From: a virus | DNA length: 22,493 nt | Direction: 5' to 3' (one strand) | Virus record (IMG/VR): IMGVR_UViG_3300007351_000060 | Location: 1-22,493 of that record | Shown: positions 1,423 to 22,349 of the stretch, one piece after another | How the letters are laid out: every line of letters starts with the position of its first letter | Position numbering within the stretch: the stretch's first letter is position 1 | Position numbers and translations under genes: made by a program | Notes under the pieces: generated by a model | Seen by the model: only the letters and a program-made list of their open reading frames with translations | Told to the model about the DNA's origin: nothing | The model's database searches: none

Positions 1423-1743
1423 ATGAAGCTGAATCTAAATATATCAGAAAGATTGCAAGCTCTTAATATTCTCAATGATTTCAAAGGTAGCTTGGAACAT
1501 CTTGGCATAATTCTTGAAGATATCAGAAAATTTACTATAACAGCAGCAGAATGGGAGAAAGCTGAAAGAGTAATAACTGAAACTTCTTGGAGTTGGAATG
1601 ATGAAAAAGGAGGAGAAAAAGAAATTGAGATCCAACTGGCAACAAAAGAATATCTGAAAAAAACAATCAAAGATAAAGACGAAAAGAAAGAAATAGGATT
1701 GCAAGAGAAAGCATTGATTAGTCTATACAAGAAATTAGCTTAA
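1423..1743 (+). CDS. Small phage protein of the 'KLNLNISERLQAL' type, 106 aa
   Basis: The N-terminus MKLNLNISERLQALNIL resembles a family of short, uncharacterised phage proteins that begin with a similar LxERLxLxxIL strand-helix. In that family a Trp-containing acidic middle and a C-terminal LYxK motif follow; here these are SWSWNDEKGG and ISLYKKLA. This assignment is from memory of the pattern, not a search. The protein is soluble and charged. It is the last gene before the structured non-coding block with a terminator, so it probably closes a transcription unit. Confidence 0.75.
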   Translation: MKLNLNISERLQALNILNDFKGSLEHLGIILEDIRKFTITAAEWEKAERVITETSWSWNDEKGGEKEIEIQLATKEYLKKTIKDKDEKKEIGLQEKALISLYKKLA

Positions 1744-1752
1744 CAATCAACA

Positions 1753-1810
1753 GACTGGGCAAAGACTCTTGATGAGTCTTTTATCCTCCTTATGGAGTTA
1801 CTGCCCAGTC
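1753..1810 (+). ncRNA. Three-way-junction RNA fold downstream of 1423-1743
   Basis: An outer helix pairs GACTGGGCA (1753-1761) with TGCCCAGTC (1802-1810). Its last base pair competes with the first base pair of the second helix. Inside it, AAAGACTC (1761-1768) pairs with GAGTCTTT (1774-1781), and CTCC (1786-1789) pairs with GGAG (1794-1797). Pairing explains almost the whole segment. It may be a 3' UTR element, an RNase processing site or a small regulatory RNA. No known family is recognised. Confidence 0.5.
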
Positions 1811-1820
1811 AATTTCATAA

Positions 1821-1889
1821 GGAAGATAAAAGGCTTATCACAGAGATAAGTCTTTTTTATTATCTGCAAATCTTCCTCTCTCTAGGAAG
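1821..1889 (+). promoter_or_regulatory. Alternative pairings around the terminator (candidate attenuator)
   Basis: GGAAGAT (1821-1827) is complementary to ATCTTCC (1870-1876), which would enclose the terminator hairpin. CTTCCT (1872-1877) is also complementary to AGGAAG (1884-1889). The two helices share bases and exclude each other. A TTATCA/TATTAT promoter-like pair with a 17-base spacer (about 1835-1863) overlaps the terminator, which could restart transcription for the scaffold gene. No Shine-Dalgarno sequence sits close to the 1910 start. Confidence 0.3.
1828..1858 (+). terminator. Intrinsic terminator before the capsid module
   Basis: AGGCTTATC (1831-1839) pairs with GATAAGTCT (1845-1853) around a five-base loop, extended by three A-U pairs and followed by a T run (1853-1858). 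One pair is G-U on the plus strand and would be an A-C mismatch on the minus strand, so the plus-strand reading is favoured. It separates the early small genes from the capsid genes. Confidence 0.65.
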
Positions 1890-1909
1890 TAAAAAATAAG
1901 AGTAAAAAT

Positions 1910-2701
1910 ATGTCAGATGAAAAAGAGTTCGTTACAAACGAAAACGGCGAGGAAATAGTTAATCCTGAATTGGTCAAAAAACCGGAAGGGGAAAGCGAAG
2001 ATGAACCCGTTGAAAAAAGCGAGGTTGAGCCGGAACCTGAACCGGAGGAAGAAGGGGAAGAGGTTGTCGAAGAGGAAATTCCAACCGAACCGAAAGCCGT
2101 CGAGGGAGAAACTCCGCGCGAAAGGGCGCTGCGAAAAGAAGTTGAGCGGTTAAGAGCCAAGACGCGCGAGAGAAAAGAGAAGGATATTTTTGGCGAAAAA
2201 AAAGAAGAACAAAAAACGCCCAAGGTAGACCTTTCTCAATACGAACCGGAGGAAATCACCAAATTCAAAGGGATTCTGGAGACATTGGCCGATGACTTAG
2301 GCTTCGTCAAAAAAGACGATGTTCAGTCATACACCTATAAAGATAAAGCCAACGAGATTCTCAATGAATTTTTGGACAATCATCCCGAGTATTCTCCCGA
2401 GAAAGACAAGGACGACACCTTGTGGAATCGGTTCAAAGAAGAATATTCTCTCTACAAACAACCCGAAGACCCCAAACTTCTCAAAAAACTATTCCAAAAG
2501 ATCCACAACGAAATTACCGACAACAAACCAATGGAAAAAGGCAAGATTTTAGCCAAACAGGAAAAAATCAAAGTTGCCTCGCATGGCGGAACTTCCAAAC
2601 AAAAAAGCTCTGCCGAAAAGGAAGCGAAGATCGACCCAAGTCTTACCGCTCACCTCCGGGGATTCTCCAAGGAGGATATGCAAGAAATATTTGGGCTTTA
2701 G
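1910..2701 (+). CDS. Probable capsid scaffolding protein, 263 aa
   Basis: The first 65 residues are extremely acidic (runs of Glu with Pro, for example EPEPEPEEEGEEVVEEEIP). They are followed by a charged coiled-coil segment (RERALRKEVERLRAKTRERK, residues about 69-88) and helical regions with a FLDNHPEYSP loop. A basic, Ser- and Lys-rich stretch comes before the C-terminal helix SKEDMQEIFGL. An acidic, helical, disordered protein directly upstream of the major capsid gene is the usual profile of a scaffold, whose C-terminal helix typically contacts the coat protein. Length fits. No protease motif is visible, so shell maturation by cleavage cannot be judged from this gene. The start follows an A-rich leader. 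Confidence 0.75.
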   Translation: MSDEKEFVTNENGEEIVNPELVKKPEGESEDEPVEKSEVEPEPEPEEEGEEVVEEEIPTEPKAVEGETPRERALRKEVERLRAKTRERKEKDIFGEKKEEQKTPKVDLSQYEPEEITKFKGILETLADDLGFVKKDDVQSYTYKDKANEILNEFLDNHPEYSPEKDKDDTLWNRFKEEYSLYKQPEDPKLLKKLFQKIHNEITDNKPMEKGKILAKQEKIKVASHGGTSKQKSSAEKEAKIDPSLTAHLRGFSKEDMQEIFGL

Positions 2702-16876: not shown

Positions 16877-19800
16877 ATGTCGTTAGCAAATTTAGCGCAA
16901 CAAAAAACTAATGAACTCAAGGGTTTAGCTGGTCTTGCCTCAAAACCAATTAAAGCTGATACTTTTACTGTTGAGGGATTAGGACAATTAGCACAAGAAT
17001 CAGGACTTGGAGAGCAAGCGGCAAGAATTATCGACACTAAACCTAAGCTACCTTTCCTGCAAAGACTAGGAAAAGGGTTAGGGGCTTTTAATCCGGCCGA
17101 AGCGATTTTAACTGGAAAAGAGGGTGGGGTAGGTTCAGGAGTTTTGGAATATGGTAAGAACATCGCACAAGGAATAGGGTCAGCTATAACAGGAAAAGAT
17201 TTTGAGGGGGAAAGGAGAACATTCAAAGATGTTGCCGAAGAAATGGGTATAGAAAACAGGATTGCAAAATTCGGTATTGGGCTTGCTGGCGATGTTTTAC
17301 TTGATCCGACTACTTATTTCGGTGGAGCGATTGCGAAAGGTTTGGGCATTGCCGCCAAAGGAGCTTCAAAAATATCTCTTAAAAGCATTGGCAAAGTTGC
17401 ACCAGAGGTCAAAACTGGTTTAGAGCTTGTGGGAACTGGATTACAAGATGCTTTAGGTAGAGCGTTTAAATATGGCTATGGGGCAAGTAAAGGAGCAAAA
17501 GAAGATGTTTTATCTTTCCTTTCTAAAGAACAAAGAGCCAAACTTGGTCTAGCGGCTTCTAATATAGACAGACTTGGAACTGGTATATTAACTCCATCAC
17601 AAAGAGAAGAATTGGCGGTTAAAATGATTGCTGGAAAAAGAGCGGAATTTGTAGCAAGAGAAGCTGGAAAATCAATAGACGAGGCGGGACAAATTGCAAG
17701 ACAAACAACACTTGAAGGAACTTCACCAGAAGTAGCAAAAGCCATTGAAGCACAGATGACTCGGTCTCAAAAAATCGGGCAAGGTCTAACTGAAAATCCT
17801 TATGAGGTTTATTTCCCTTTTATCAAGAAAGGTAAACTTGCAAAATTTGTAAACGAAACAAAAGGTATAAAAGTTGGAAGCGAGGGTTATCGCAAGCAAT
17901 TTAAGAACTTATTAACTAACGAAAATATGGAGCTTGACCCTGCCAAAGCTTTTTTTACCAGAGAGTCTCAAATTGTAGCTGACAGAATGACGCGCGACTT
18001 TTTAAGTGGATTTGCGAAAAAATATGGGCAAAAGTTTGCCAATGAAGCCGAAGCAAAAGCTACTGGTTATGTTCCTGTGTATGAAAAAGGATTAAGTCAG
18101 GGATTAGGATTTTATAAAGGTGAAATTGATGTTGCGGAAGATATATTAAAGCAGATGAATCTTCAAAAAATGGGAACAACTTTGCCCAATACGGGGAGAA
18201 CATGGGAGCAACAGTTTATTAAAGTTGGGCAGGCAATCAAATTCGCTGAAGAGTCTGGATTAAAGGTTTCTAAAGGGTCTGGAAGGAGCATGGGTAAGGC
18301 ACTGGGGAGGGCTACTTTGGGCGGGTCAGAAAAAGGGGGGATTGTTAAACTGAAGTCTTTTTCAAGTGAAGTTATATCTCATGAATTGGGGCACTCTTTC
18401 GATATTGAACTAAGCAAGGTTATAAACACTAAAAAAATATACCAAAAAGAATTAGCAAACTTAGTTGAAAAAACCGGGTTGGGCGGTGGTGTCGCATATA
18501 GACGAAGTGCGGTTGAGAGGTTTGCTGAGTTTGTTATGACTTATGTTCATGACCCATCGAAAGCAAAAGAGTGGGCTCCAGAATTTACAAAATTCTTCGA
18601 GAATAATTACTTAAAAAATCAAAAAATATCTGAATTGGTTAATAAAATTGGTTCCTTTTTTCAGAAAGTTGACGGTCTCCCAAACATAACCACCCCTCTA
18701 AAAGAAATGGATAATGCTAGTTATTTTGAGTTGGCCATTAAGAAAGCGTTTCCCAAAAAAGAATTTATAGGGGTTAAAAAAAATGAAGCTTTAGGTTATA
18801 TAAGTGAGTGGGACGCAAAATTACTAAGAGATTCTATTTCTCCTGAATTTCAGACAATAAACATGCTTGCTAAAGCTACTGGTTTTGACGCTATTACTTC
18901 CTTGTTTAAACGTTCAGTTACCGGGTTGTTTGCCCCCTTTCATGTTCGCAATTTCTTATCAGGTCAGATACAGAATTTTGAGGTTTTAGGAGCTGGGGCT
19001 TTGAACCCTAAAAATATTAACGTAGGACGAAAGATAGCCTACTTAATGGGCAAGGGAGAAAAAATACCCGCCGGAACAATAGAAATAGGTGGAAAGCCAA
19101 TGAAATTCAGTGACGTAATAAAGCCCTTTACGGATAGATTTTCGGGTGATACTTTTTATAATGCCGATTTTGAAATGGCTTTAAAAAGCGGGACTGAACT
19201 AAAACAAGTTGCCGGCATATTCTCCAAACAGAGAATTAAAGAAACAGCCAAGACTGTTGGTTTAGGACAAGAAGCGATACCATTTAAAGTGGGAAGGGGA
19301 ATAGGGCAATTTATAGAACACCAACAGAAAGCCACCGCTTATGTTACAGCGTTATCACAAGGCAAAAACATAGACGAAGCATTAAGAATAGCGGAAGCGG
19401 CGGGTTTTGATTACAGAGCCTTAACTAAATTTGAATCGCAAATAATGCGAAGGCTTATTCCTTTTTATTCTTTCACGAGGAAAAATGTTGAATTACAAAT
19501 AAAAACATTAGGCGAAAATCCACAAAGAATAAATCAAGTGCTGGCTTTCTTTAGAAATGTCGGCGAACCCTTAAGTGAAGAAGAAAAACAGAATCTTCCC
19601 GATTTTATCAAAGAATCCATTGGCGTAAAACTTCAAGACACACCGGAAGGTTTGAAGCAGTATATCTCATCCTTTGGAACACCAGTAGAAGCATTTACTC
19701 AGCTTTTTGGTTCAAACCCTATTTTGAGAATTATTAGCACAATGAATCCGGCAATTAAAGTTCCCATTGAATTAGGCATAGGAAAAGACAGCTTCCGACA

Positions 19801-21775: not shown

Positions 21776-21803
21776 TTGGCTATCGGAAGTTTTGGTATAT
21801 AAT
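21776..21803 (+). promoter_or_regulatory. Candidate sigma70-type promoter, plus strand
   Basis: TTGGCT (four of six), a 16-base spacer and a perfect TATAAT. Predicted transcription starts near 21810, directly before three hairpins and a terminator, so it would yield a short RNA. It lies back to back with the minus-strand promoter candidate. Confidence 0.45.
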
Positions 21804-21830
21804 AAAAAGCACCCACGGGTGGTGGGTGCT
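21804..21830 (-). terminator. Intrinsic terminator for minus-strand transcripts from the right
   Basis: AGCACCCA (21808-21815) and TGGGTGCT (21823-21830) pair perfectly. On the minus strand the stem is followed by TTTTT. It would stop any RNA coming from the structured region beyond 21900 before it reaches the operon promoter. Confidence 0.55.
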
Positions 21831-21898
21831 TGAAATACCTTAATTGGTATTTTTGATTAGAAATCGCTTGTTGAGTTTTCTCACACAGGCGATTTTTT
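21810..21898 (+). ncRNA. Candidate small RNA of about 90 bases
   Basis: It is bounded by the plus-strand promoter candidate and a strong terminator. It would carry three hairpins in a row: AGCACCCA/TGGGTGCT, AAATACC (21834-21840) with GGTATTT, and the terminator stem. There is no open frame of use in it. Its existence depends on the promoter being real. Confidence 0.3.
21861..21898 (+). terminator. Strong intrinsic terminator, plus strand
   Basis: AAATCGC (21861-21867) pairs with GCGATTT (21889-21895), continued inward by TTGT with ACAG (after a bulged C) and TGAG with CTCA around TTTT. The stem runs into a T7 tract. One pair is G-U on the plus strand and would be C-A on the minus strand, so plus orientation is favoured. 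Confidence 0.65.
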
Positions 21899-21908
21899 TA
21901 TGCCCTGA

Positions 21909-22127
21909 ATTGGAATCCGTTGGAAATACTATCCAATTGCCGTTCCAATGCTCGCAGAGCATTTTGCCGTTTTCTACTGGAAAACAGCGAGCAAACTTAG
22001 TCATTTGCTTTTTAGTATCTACTGATTGTTAAGTTTTTCTCTTGCTCGCCAAGATGCTTACATACCGATAATCGTATGCAGGGTAATTCTGTGTAATTCA
22101 AACAGAAAAACACTTTCCAAGGCAAGA
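21909..22127. ncRNA. Dense run of RNA helices, second structured domain
   Basis: No gene is supported here. Perfect complementary pairs include 21909-21915 with 21943-21949, 21949-21955 with 21987-21993 (TGCTCGC/GCGAGCA), and 21987-21999 with a bulged partner 22030-22049. Further pairs are 21969-21974 with 21980-21985, a CATAC hairpin at 22061-22078, TCTGT/ACAGA at 22088-22106, and TCTTGC (22040-22045) with GCAAGA (22122-22127). Several exclude one another, as in switching RNAs. The helices give no strand information. Confidence 0.35.
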
Positions 22128-22151
22128 AAAAAACCCACTCTGAATCGTGGG
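22127..22151 (-). terminator. Terminator that competes with the pseudoknot helix
   Basis: On the minus strand, CCCAC (22151-22147) pairs with GTGGG (22138-22134) around an eight-base loop, followed by T7 (22133-22127). The CCCAC arm is also part of helix one, so the two folds exclude each other. Confidence 0.5.
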
Positions 22152-22291
22152 ATGTGGTGCATAGGCATCTCTTGCGAGATAGCTAACGCCCCAGATTGGG
22201 ACATAGGTAGAAAATACCGACATCCCACAATTCAAGGCAGGTTTTGTCTGCCTATGCTTTTATTTTACTTCGGAGTTTCTACTCCCCGAAG
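22127..22291 (-). ncRNA. Pseudoknotted RNA candidate with terminator, minus strand
   Basis: Helix one pairs 22142-22155 with 22220-22233 (14 positions). Helix two pairs GCATAGGCA (22159-22167) with TGCCTATGC (22249-22257), nine of nine, and crosses helix one, making a pseudoknot. Inside helix one are hairpins at 22167-22180, 22190-22200 and 22206-22218. Hairpins at 22235-22253 and 22268-22291 precede them on the minus strand. The one imperfect pair in helix one is G-U on the minus strand but C-A on the plus strand, which supports minus-strand RNA. A terminator at its 3' end competes with helix one. The layout resembles a riboswitch or attenuator, but no known class is recognised. Confidence 0.5.
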
Positions 22292-22349
22292 GATCTAAAT
22301 TATCAAATCTTTATTCTTACTCTATCATAGTTCCTTTTAAATTGCAAAT

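Follow-up and report, generated by a model that had tools for sequence, protein, structure and literature searches.

Near one end of a viral record of 22,493 bp, analysed here over its whole length (the window), a non-coding region of ~720 nt holds on its minus strand an RNA (22291-22127) in which two helices cross and a terminator competes with one of them. The question raised by this locus is whether the arrangement is a regulatory device, and of what kind. Rather than folding this way by chance, the RNA seems to be an on/off switch for the expression of phage genes, of a kind not described before.

Architecture of the minus-strand RNA

The first element of the predicted transcript is a 5' hairpin (CUUCGGGG..CUCCGAAG, 22268..22291), followed by the 5' strand of helix P1 (GCAUAGGCA, 22249..22257), a candidate anti-antiterminator whose 3' strand (UGCCUAUGC) lies at 22159..22167. 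Helix P2, the candidate antiterminator, is formed by an extended 5' strand (22216..22245, inverted repeat I1) with the core GAAUUGUGGGAUGU at 22233-22220, and by an extended 3' strand (22130..22158) with the core ACAUCCCACGAUUC at 22155-22142. A sequence-only reading of this DNA had described arms of 14 pairs (22233-22220 / 22155-22142) and of nine perfect pairs (22257-22249 / 22167-22159); both were found, and they are interleaved, the main helix P2 being longer than noted, with 28 pairs and -39.8 kcal/mol. The terminator hairpin CCCAC-GAUUCAGA-GUGGG (22134..22151) has its 5' arm CCCAC (22151-22147) inside the P2 3' strand, and is followed by a U7 tail (22127..22133) and then by CUUGC, which is also found in four of the leaders of a scaffold gene described below.

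This terminator overlapping the main helix had likewise been recognised, together with three hairpins between the helices, and all were located. Among the predicted folds, hairpin Q (UGGGAUGU..GGUA/UACC..AUGUCCCA, 22197..22227), which appears in the growing-transcript prediction and also as a predicted state, would hold the P2 5' strand until the P2 3' strand is made, hairpin R (AUGUCCCA/UGGGGCGU, 22186..22204) coexists with P2 and is exclusive with Q, and a further hairpin, AUCUC-GCAA-GAGAU, occupies 22167..22180. A chain of strand exchanges is readable in the sequence: GUGGGAUGU pairs with AUGUCCCA or with ACAUCCCAC, AUGUCCCA alternatively with UGGGGCGU, and CCCAC of ACAUCCCAC alternatively with the terminator arm GUGGG.

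The minus-strand minimum free energy is -62.7 kcal/mol (z -7.0, none of 200 shuffles being as good), and the plus-strand fold has a z of -4.7. The minus strand had been favoured earlier on a single G-U/C-A difference, and one G-U of the 14-pair core is indeed C-A on the plus strand; P2 as a whole, however, has four G-U pairs on the minus strand against one A.C position that is G-U on the plus strand, so that the direction of this argument stands and its count does not. The strand evidence from G-U in the P2 of this RNA is still modest, though a little stronger than one difference.

Leaders of the presumptive scaffold gene

A search for helices that cross led to the leader of gene 1910-2701 and to its counterparts in relatives, 11 of which were gathered via the presumptive major capsid protein of the record. 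The product of gene 1910-2701 is considered here a presumptive scaffold on account of its acidic character and of the position of its gene in the capsid cluster, a short way upstream of the presumptive capsid gene; no family model names it. The six syntenic leaders, which covary and have no Rfam match, are those of the window (1741-1912, +) and of five related phages: L095 (3942-4107), L098 (16861-17038), L101 (13943-14120), L102 (7318-7480, -) and L100 (11650-11806, -). In the window leader (+), the P1 5' strand GACTGGGCA (1753..1761) begins 9 nt past the upstream stop codon and its partner TGCCCAGTC lies at 1802..1810; the P2 strands (1766..1799 and 1811..1845) form 33 pairs with -42.2 kcal/mol, and the 3' strand includes the 5' arm of the terminator AAAAGGCTTATC-ACAGA-GATAAGTCTTTT (1828..1864), which has a T-rich tail and stands upstream of gene 1910-2701.

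In all six leaders a P1 of 7-12 bp crosses a P2 of 25-33 pairs, and within the 3' strand of this P2 lies the 5' arm of a terminator with a stem of 8-12 pairs; a U-rich tract follows the 3' arm, with UUUUCUUGC in four of the six. The linkers are short (L1 0-4, L2 1-5 and L3 0-2 nt), the P2 loop of 10-19 nt is mostly the P1 3' strand, and P1 begins 9-23 nt past the upstream stop codon. The P1 sequences differ among most of the phages and yet match, with 42 of 42 pairs in their own combination and in only one of 720 permutations, and P2 behaves in the same way (48/48 pairs in the true combination only, 1/720 permutations). The chance level of P1 is 0.00015-0.00175 per leader and 0.0015 for the RNA at 22291-22127, with which added the P1 pairs reach 49/49 in one of 5040 permutations. 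G-U pairs are more numerous on the transcribed strand than on the other, with 26 against 9 for the leaders and 4 against 1 for the 22291-22127 RNA. The check for compensatory changes, set beforehand, was thus passed by the architecture as a family, since the helices of the six leaders covary; those of the 22291-22127 copy, for which no sequence homologues were found, have no covariation support of their own, and the evidence from the six leaders is the stronger.

The same layout precedes the presumptive scaffold gene here and in five relatives, which makes it probable that the phages of this lineage use the device repeatedly for regulation. In the modelled folds, the state with terminator and P1 and the state with P2 are 0-6.1 kcal/mol apart in the leaders, a gap as for a poised switch. 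A further relative, L145 (G391), has the same gene order and at most a reduced form of the leader, and a search of 380 genomes for the 3' motif shared by the leaders gave no match. Other capsid-cluster genes are preceded by a hairpin with AGTAAAA after it, and then by AAGTAAAA and the start codon (L101 12633, +; L102 8374, -; G386 34187, +, in L098), and CTTGC/GCAAG occurs at two of these three sites.

Relation of the 22291-22127 RNA to the leaders

The agreement of the 22291-22127 RNA with the leaders is one of layout: a P1 of 9 bp, a P2 of 28 pairs, a terminator arm inside the P2 3' strand, and U7 followed by CUUGC. By contrast, its P2 loop measures 56 nt and contains hairpins, versus 10-19 nt in the leaders, its terminator stem has 5 pairs versus 8-12, and its terminator 5' arm shares 5 nt with P2 versus 8-12 nt; no sequence homology to the leaders was seen. 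In a descriptor scan of 262 kb of phage DNA, the leaders and the 22291-22127 RNA were among the strongest terminator-bearing matches, a ranking that is partly circular, given that the descriptors were developed on these same data; the synteny and the permutation test are independent of the 22291-22127 copy. The descriptor alone is not specific, as many long duplexes occur in GC-rich control DNA and terminator-bearing matches occur in control genomes too. Interleaved repeats number 18 in these phages against 3-7 in shuffles, a general excess that is weak, control DNA being similar when no T-tail is required. When only intergenic terminators were considered, p 0.01 was reached by 4 of 22 phage terminators, which represent three separate elements, and by none of the 31 and none of the 17 in two sets of controls. 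With moderate confidence, these comparisons suggest that the 22291-22127 RNA works like the leaders; common descent is not claimed.

A proposed three-state attenuator

On balance, the minus-strand RNA 22291-22127 can be regarded as a transcription attenuator, with P1 as anti-antiterminator, P2 as antiterminator and the hairpin T as terminator. The architecture is supported by the sequences compared, through the helices, their overlap, the synteny and covariation of the leaders and the recurrence of the layout here; transcription, termination, the order of switching, the trigger and the target of this copy we infer. The P2 rod of ~28 pairs would act as the antiterminator by sequestering the terminator 5' arm. 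As the P1 3' strand is synthesized ahead of the P2 3' strand, P1 could form first; once closed, it would bar the full P2 rod, because the linkers leave too little room for two helices that cross, so that the terminator hairpin would form and transcription would stop at ~22127. If P1 were prevented or opened, P2 would win and read-through would follow. In line with this order, simulated folding of the growing chain gives the hairpins next to P1 and Q first, P1 becoming possible at ~138 nt (probability 0.59) and being replaced by P2 at 144-150 nt; in the full-length RNA the P2 rod is the best fold (-66.8 kcal/mol), with terminator-compatible folds at -59.0 to -59.6 kcal/mol.

Candidate triggers are a ribosome, a phage protein or the speed of the polymerase. 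In the leaders with the shortest spacings, a ribosome halted at the stop codon upstream could cover P1, and hardly so at 17-23 nt; for the 22291-22127 copy no upstream gene is known. A structural protein might also exert autogenous control. The earlier notion that the RNA has the plan of a switch is supported as regards the competing terminator, a layout repeated with covarying helices in six syntenic leaders. A small-molecule aptamer is not the favoured reading, since no unpaired core with strong conservation was seen among the leaders.

The Bacillus subtilis rplJL leader (PMC4538822), where 8 nt belong to both the first structure and the antiterminator, has in common with the RNA described here three mutually exclusive structures, an overlap of the antiterminator with the terminator 5' arm and a U-rich tail. 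Of the features that define an attenuator, the hairpin with U tract and the antiterminator-terminator overlap are present at 22291-22127, and bases shared by anti-antiterminator and antiterminator are absent: unlike in rplJL, P1 shares no bases with P2, which it would exclude by crossing, and the carrier is a phage. Like the HK022 put RNA, which acts on the RNA polymerase elongation complex itself (PMC9378689), the element is a structured phage RNA; put affects termination, a role that is predicted here, and the 22291-22127 RNA differs from it in its direct overlap with a local terminator.

More tentatively, and at a level that leaves the proposal doubtful, these elements may constitute a new class of leader switch in which the anti-antiterminator blocks by topology, with no shared bases, and which repeatedly times capsid and other genes in Patescibacteria phages, 22291-22127 being a second, diverged copy. 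If the attenuator reading holds, it would add to attenuation a form in which helices exclude each other by crossing and not by base sharing, it would represent a structured RNA family absent from Rfam from viruses of the Patescibacteria, and the 22291-22127 RNA would be explained as one of a kind with six capsid-cluster leaders. To our knowledge, this host group has almost no genetics.

Genomic setting and the small RNA alternative

Large genes of the window have almost no Pfam or PHROG matches, and terminase, portal-like and M23 endolysin genes are carried by relatives. The host probably belongs to the tiny bacteria of the Patescibacteria, an assignment for which the PG-binding domain is a weak basis: its best match is in a Paceibacterota genome (71% over 62 residues), and most other matches of this short query are cyanobacterial. 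The region that holds the RNA is flanked by the PG-binding gene (21631-20735, -) and by a plus-strand gene from 22350, the start of which resembles M23 endolysins at the same place in relatives. The sole nearby minus-strand ORF (22004-21840, 54 aa) has non-coding-like codon use, and a search for its relatives gave none that is convincing. The earlier remark that no gene follows closely is therefore upheld: a downstream same-strand gene is in place for the six leaders, whereas none convincing was found within ~500 nt of 22291-22127, and two more minus-strand terminator-like hairpins stand between the RNA and anything downstream.

In this setting the element might be a stand-alone small RNA of ~165 nt, running from ~22291 to the terminator and either acting in trans or being simply a leader that terminates by default, as the lambda late-promoter transcript does. 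The terminator and a weak promoter-like site, ATGATA-18-GATAAT (22299..22328, -; 9/12 matches), from which a transcript would start at ~22291, bracket the element, with such sites occurring at chance number in the region; no gene lies close downstream, and the ~720 nt include several terminator-like hairpins, on both strands, with no coding signal. Nevertheless, the crossing of P1 and the overlap of P2 with the terminator would be purposeless in a constitutive small RNA, and the layout precedes a gene elsewhere, which makes this explanation unlikely, if the best placed of the alternatives to the attenuator.

In the same region, the best promoter-like site (TTGGCT-16-TATAAT) is followed by three hairpins and by a T-tailed terminator at 21895 (21776-21900, +; 21831-21801, -), which might yield an RNA of 90 nt that is antisense to a terminator of the minus strand. 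The motif GTAKATAMTAAAAAGCA is repeated in opposite orientation at 21795-21811 (+) and 22022-22006 (-), with three matches, one of them with three mismatches, against 0.4 in shuffles.

Processing and pseudoknot alternatives

Phage RNase III sites are found between genes of one strand, and P2 might similarly be a duplex for cleavage by an RNase III-type enzyme in an RNA processing or stability element, the terminator-like hairpin being secondary. P2 exceeds two helical turns in seven of seven cases and the leaders sit between same-strand genes, as do such sites, but this reading leaves unexplained both the complementarity between P1 and the P2 loop in six phages and the terminator arm that always lies in P2, and we consider it distinctly improbable.

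Equally little probability is given to a true pseudoknot in which P1 and the 14-pair P2 core form together and bind a ligand or protein, as in a riboswitch or protein-sensing leader. With the core P2 alone, the linkers here would be 15, 52 and 3 nt, coexistence would be possible if the lower rod opened, and the rough energy is competitive; as in H-type pseudoknot riboswitches, two crossing helices stand beside an expression platform. Unlike in those riboswitches, P2 has 25-33 pairs, the leader linkers are too short for both helices with the full P2, and neither a conserved unpaired ligand core nor a match to an Rfam riboswitch was seen. The element had been described as a pseudoknotted RNA; P1 and P2 do cross, but the lowest-energy and the terminator-compatible folds are alternatives, and since P2 extends to 28 pairs, P1 and the full P2 are better read, in the model, as alternatives than as one pseudoknot.

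The earlier statement that the RNA matches no class recognised in that reading agrees with the covariance search: with Rfam 15 at curated thresholds, neither the window over its full length nor eight relative loci gave a match, and a relaxed search of the region gave chance-level matches only. A tRNA or tmRNA identity was considered and rejected, as was that of a known riboswitch or 6S RNA, with no Rfam match.

Homologue searches and chance levels

No sequence homologues of 22291-22127 were found in 13 related phage records or 380 genomes, and the single-sequence covariance model R1 gave no convincing match in the 13 records and two weak fragments in the 380 genomes. The best match of a DNA comparison with these genomes, of 35 nt, lies inside a coding gene and was rejected. 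Exact-pattern scans of viral contigs gave chance matches only among the sequences inspected, the RNA is absent from relatives found through the 1110-aa protein, and scans of viral contigs with the PG-binding protein, the endolysin start and the 54-aa ORF yielded no useful relative. Such elements, whose layout persists as their sequence diverges, would be missed by homology searches by sequence.

That the element is an unregulated bidirectional terminator whose stems interleave, or that the layout arose here by chance, is very improbable. In favour of this, TTTTATTTT follows P1 on the plus strand, no homologue was found, and 73 of 2000 shuffles (3.7%) contain some pair of crossing helices of at least 9 pairs with G-U allowed, a weaker result; against it, the layout recurs and the position-specific chance levels are 0.0002-0.0015, a P1-quality helix from the P2 loop to the upstream flank appearing in 0.15% of shuffles and one abutting the P2 3' strand in 0.02%.

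Other elements of these genomes

The leader of the PG-binding gene (21714-21653, -) has a terminator hairpin of 12 pairs with a UUUGUUUU tail, ending ~24 nt ahead of the start codon; the 9-nt loop of this hairpin can pair in full with a strand upstream, the same kind of crossing. More crossed-helix leaders (+) are present in L097 (13694-13747, 17211-17264 and ~18710-18770) and L076 (19123-19201), immediately upstream of genes for NUMOD3/DUF559, HTH/DnaD-like, NUMOD3/HNH and presumed replication proteins, and two of them have the linker ATTTTTTATGCC in common. An ORF of 50 aa in the window (20358-20206, -), small membrane-protein-like, is kept beside the 1110-aa gene in L074 and L076. In L075 (541-820, +), two long rod-like hairpins stand in tandem (fold z -8.5), one of them with a tRNA T-arm-like stretch, GGTAGGTTCGACTCCTAC.
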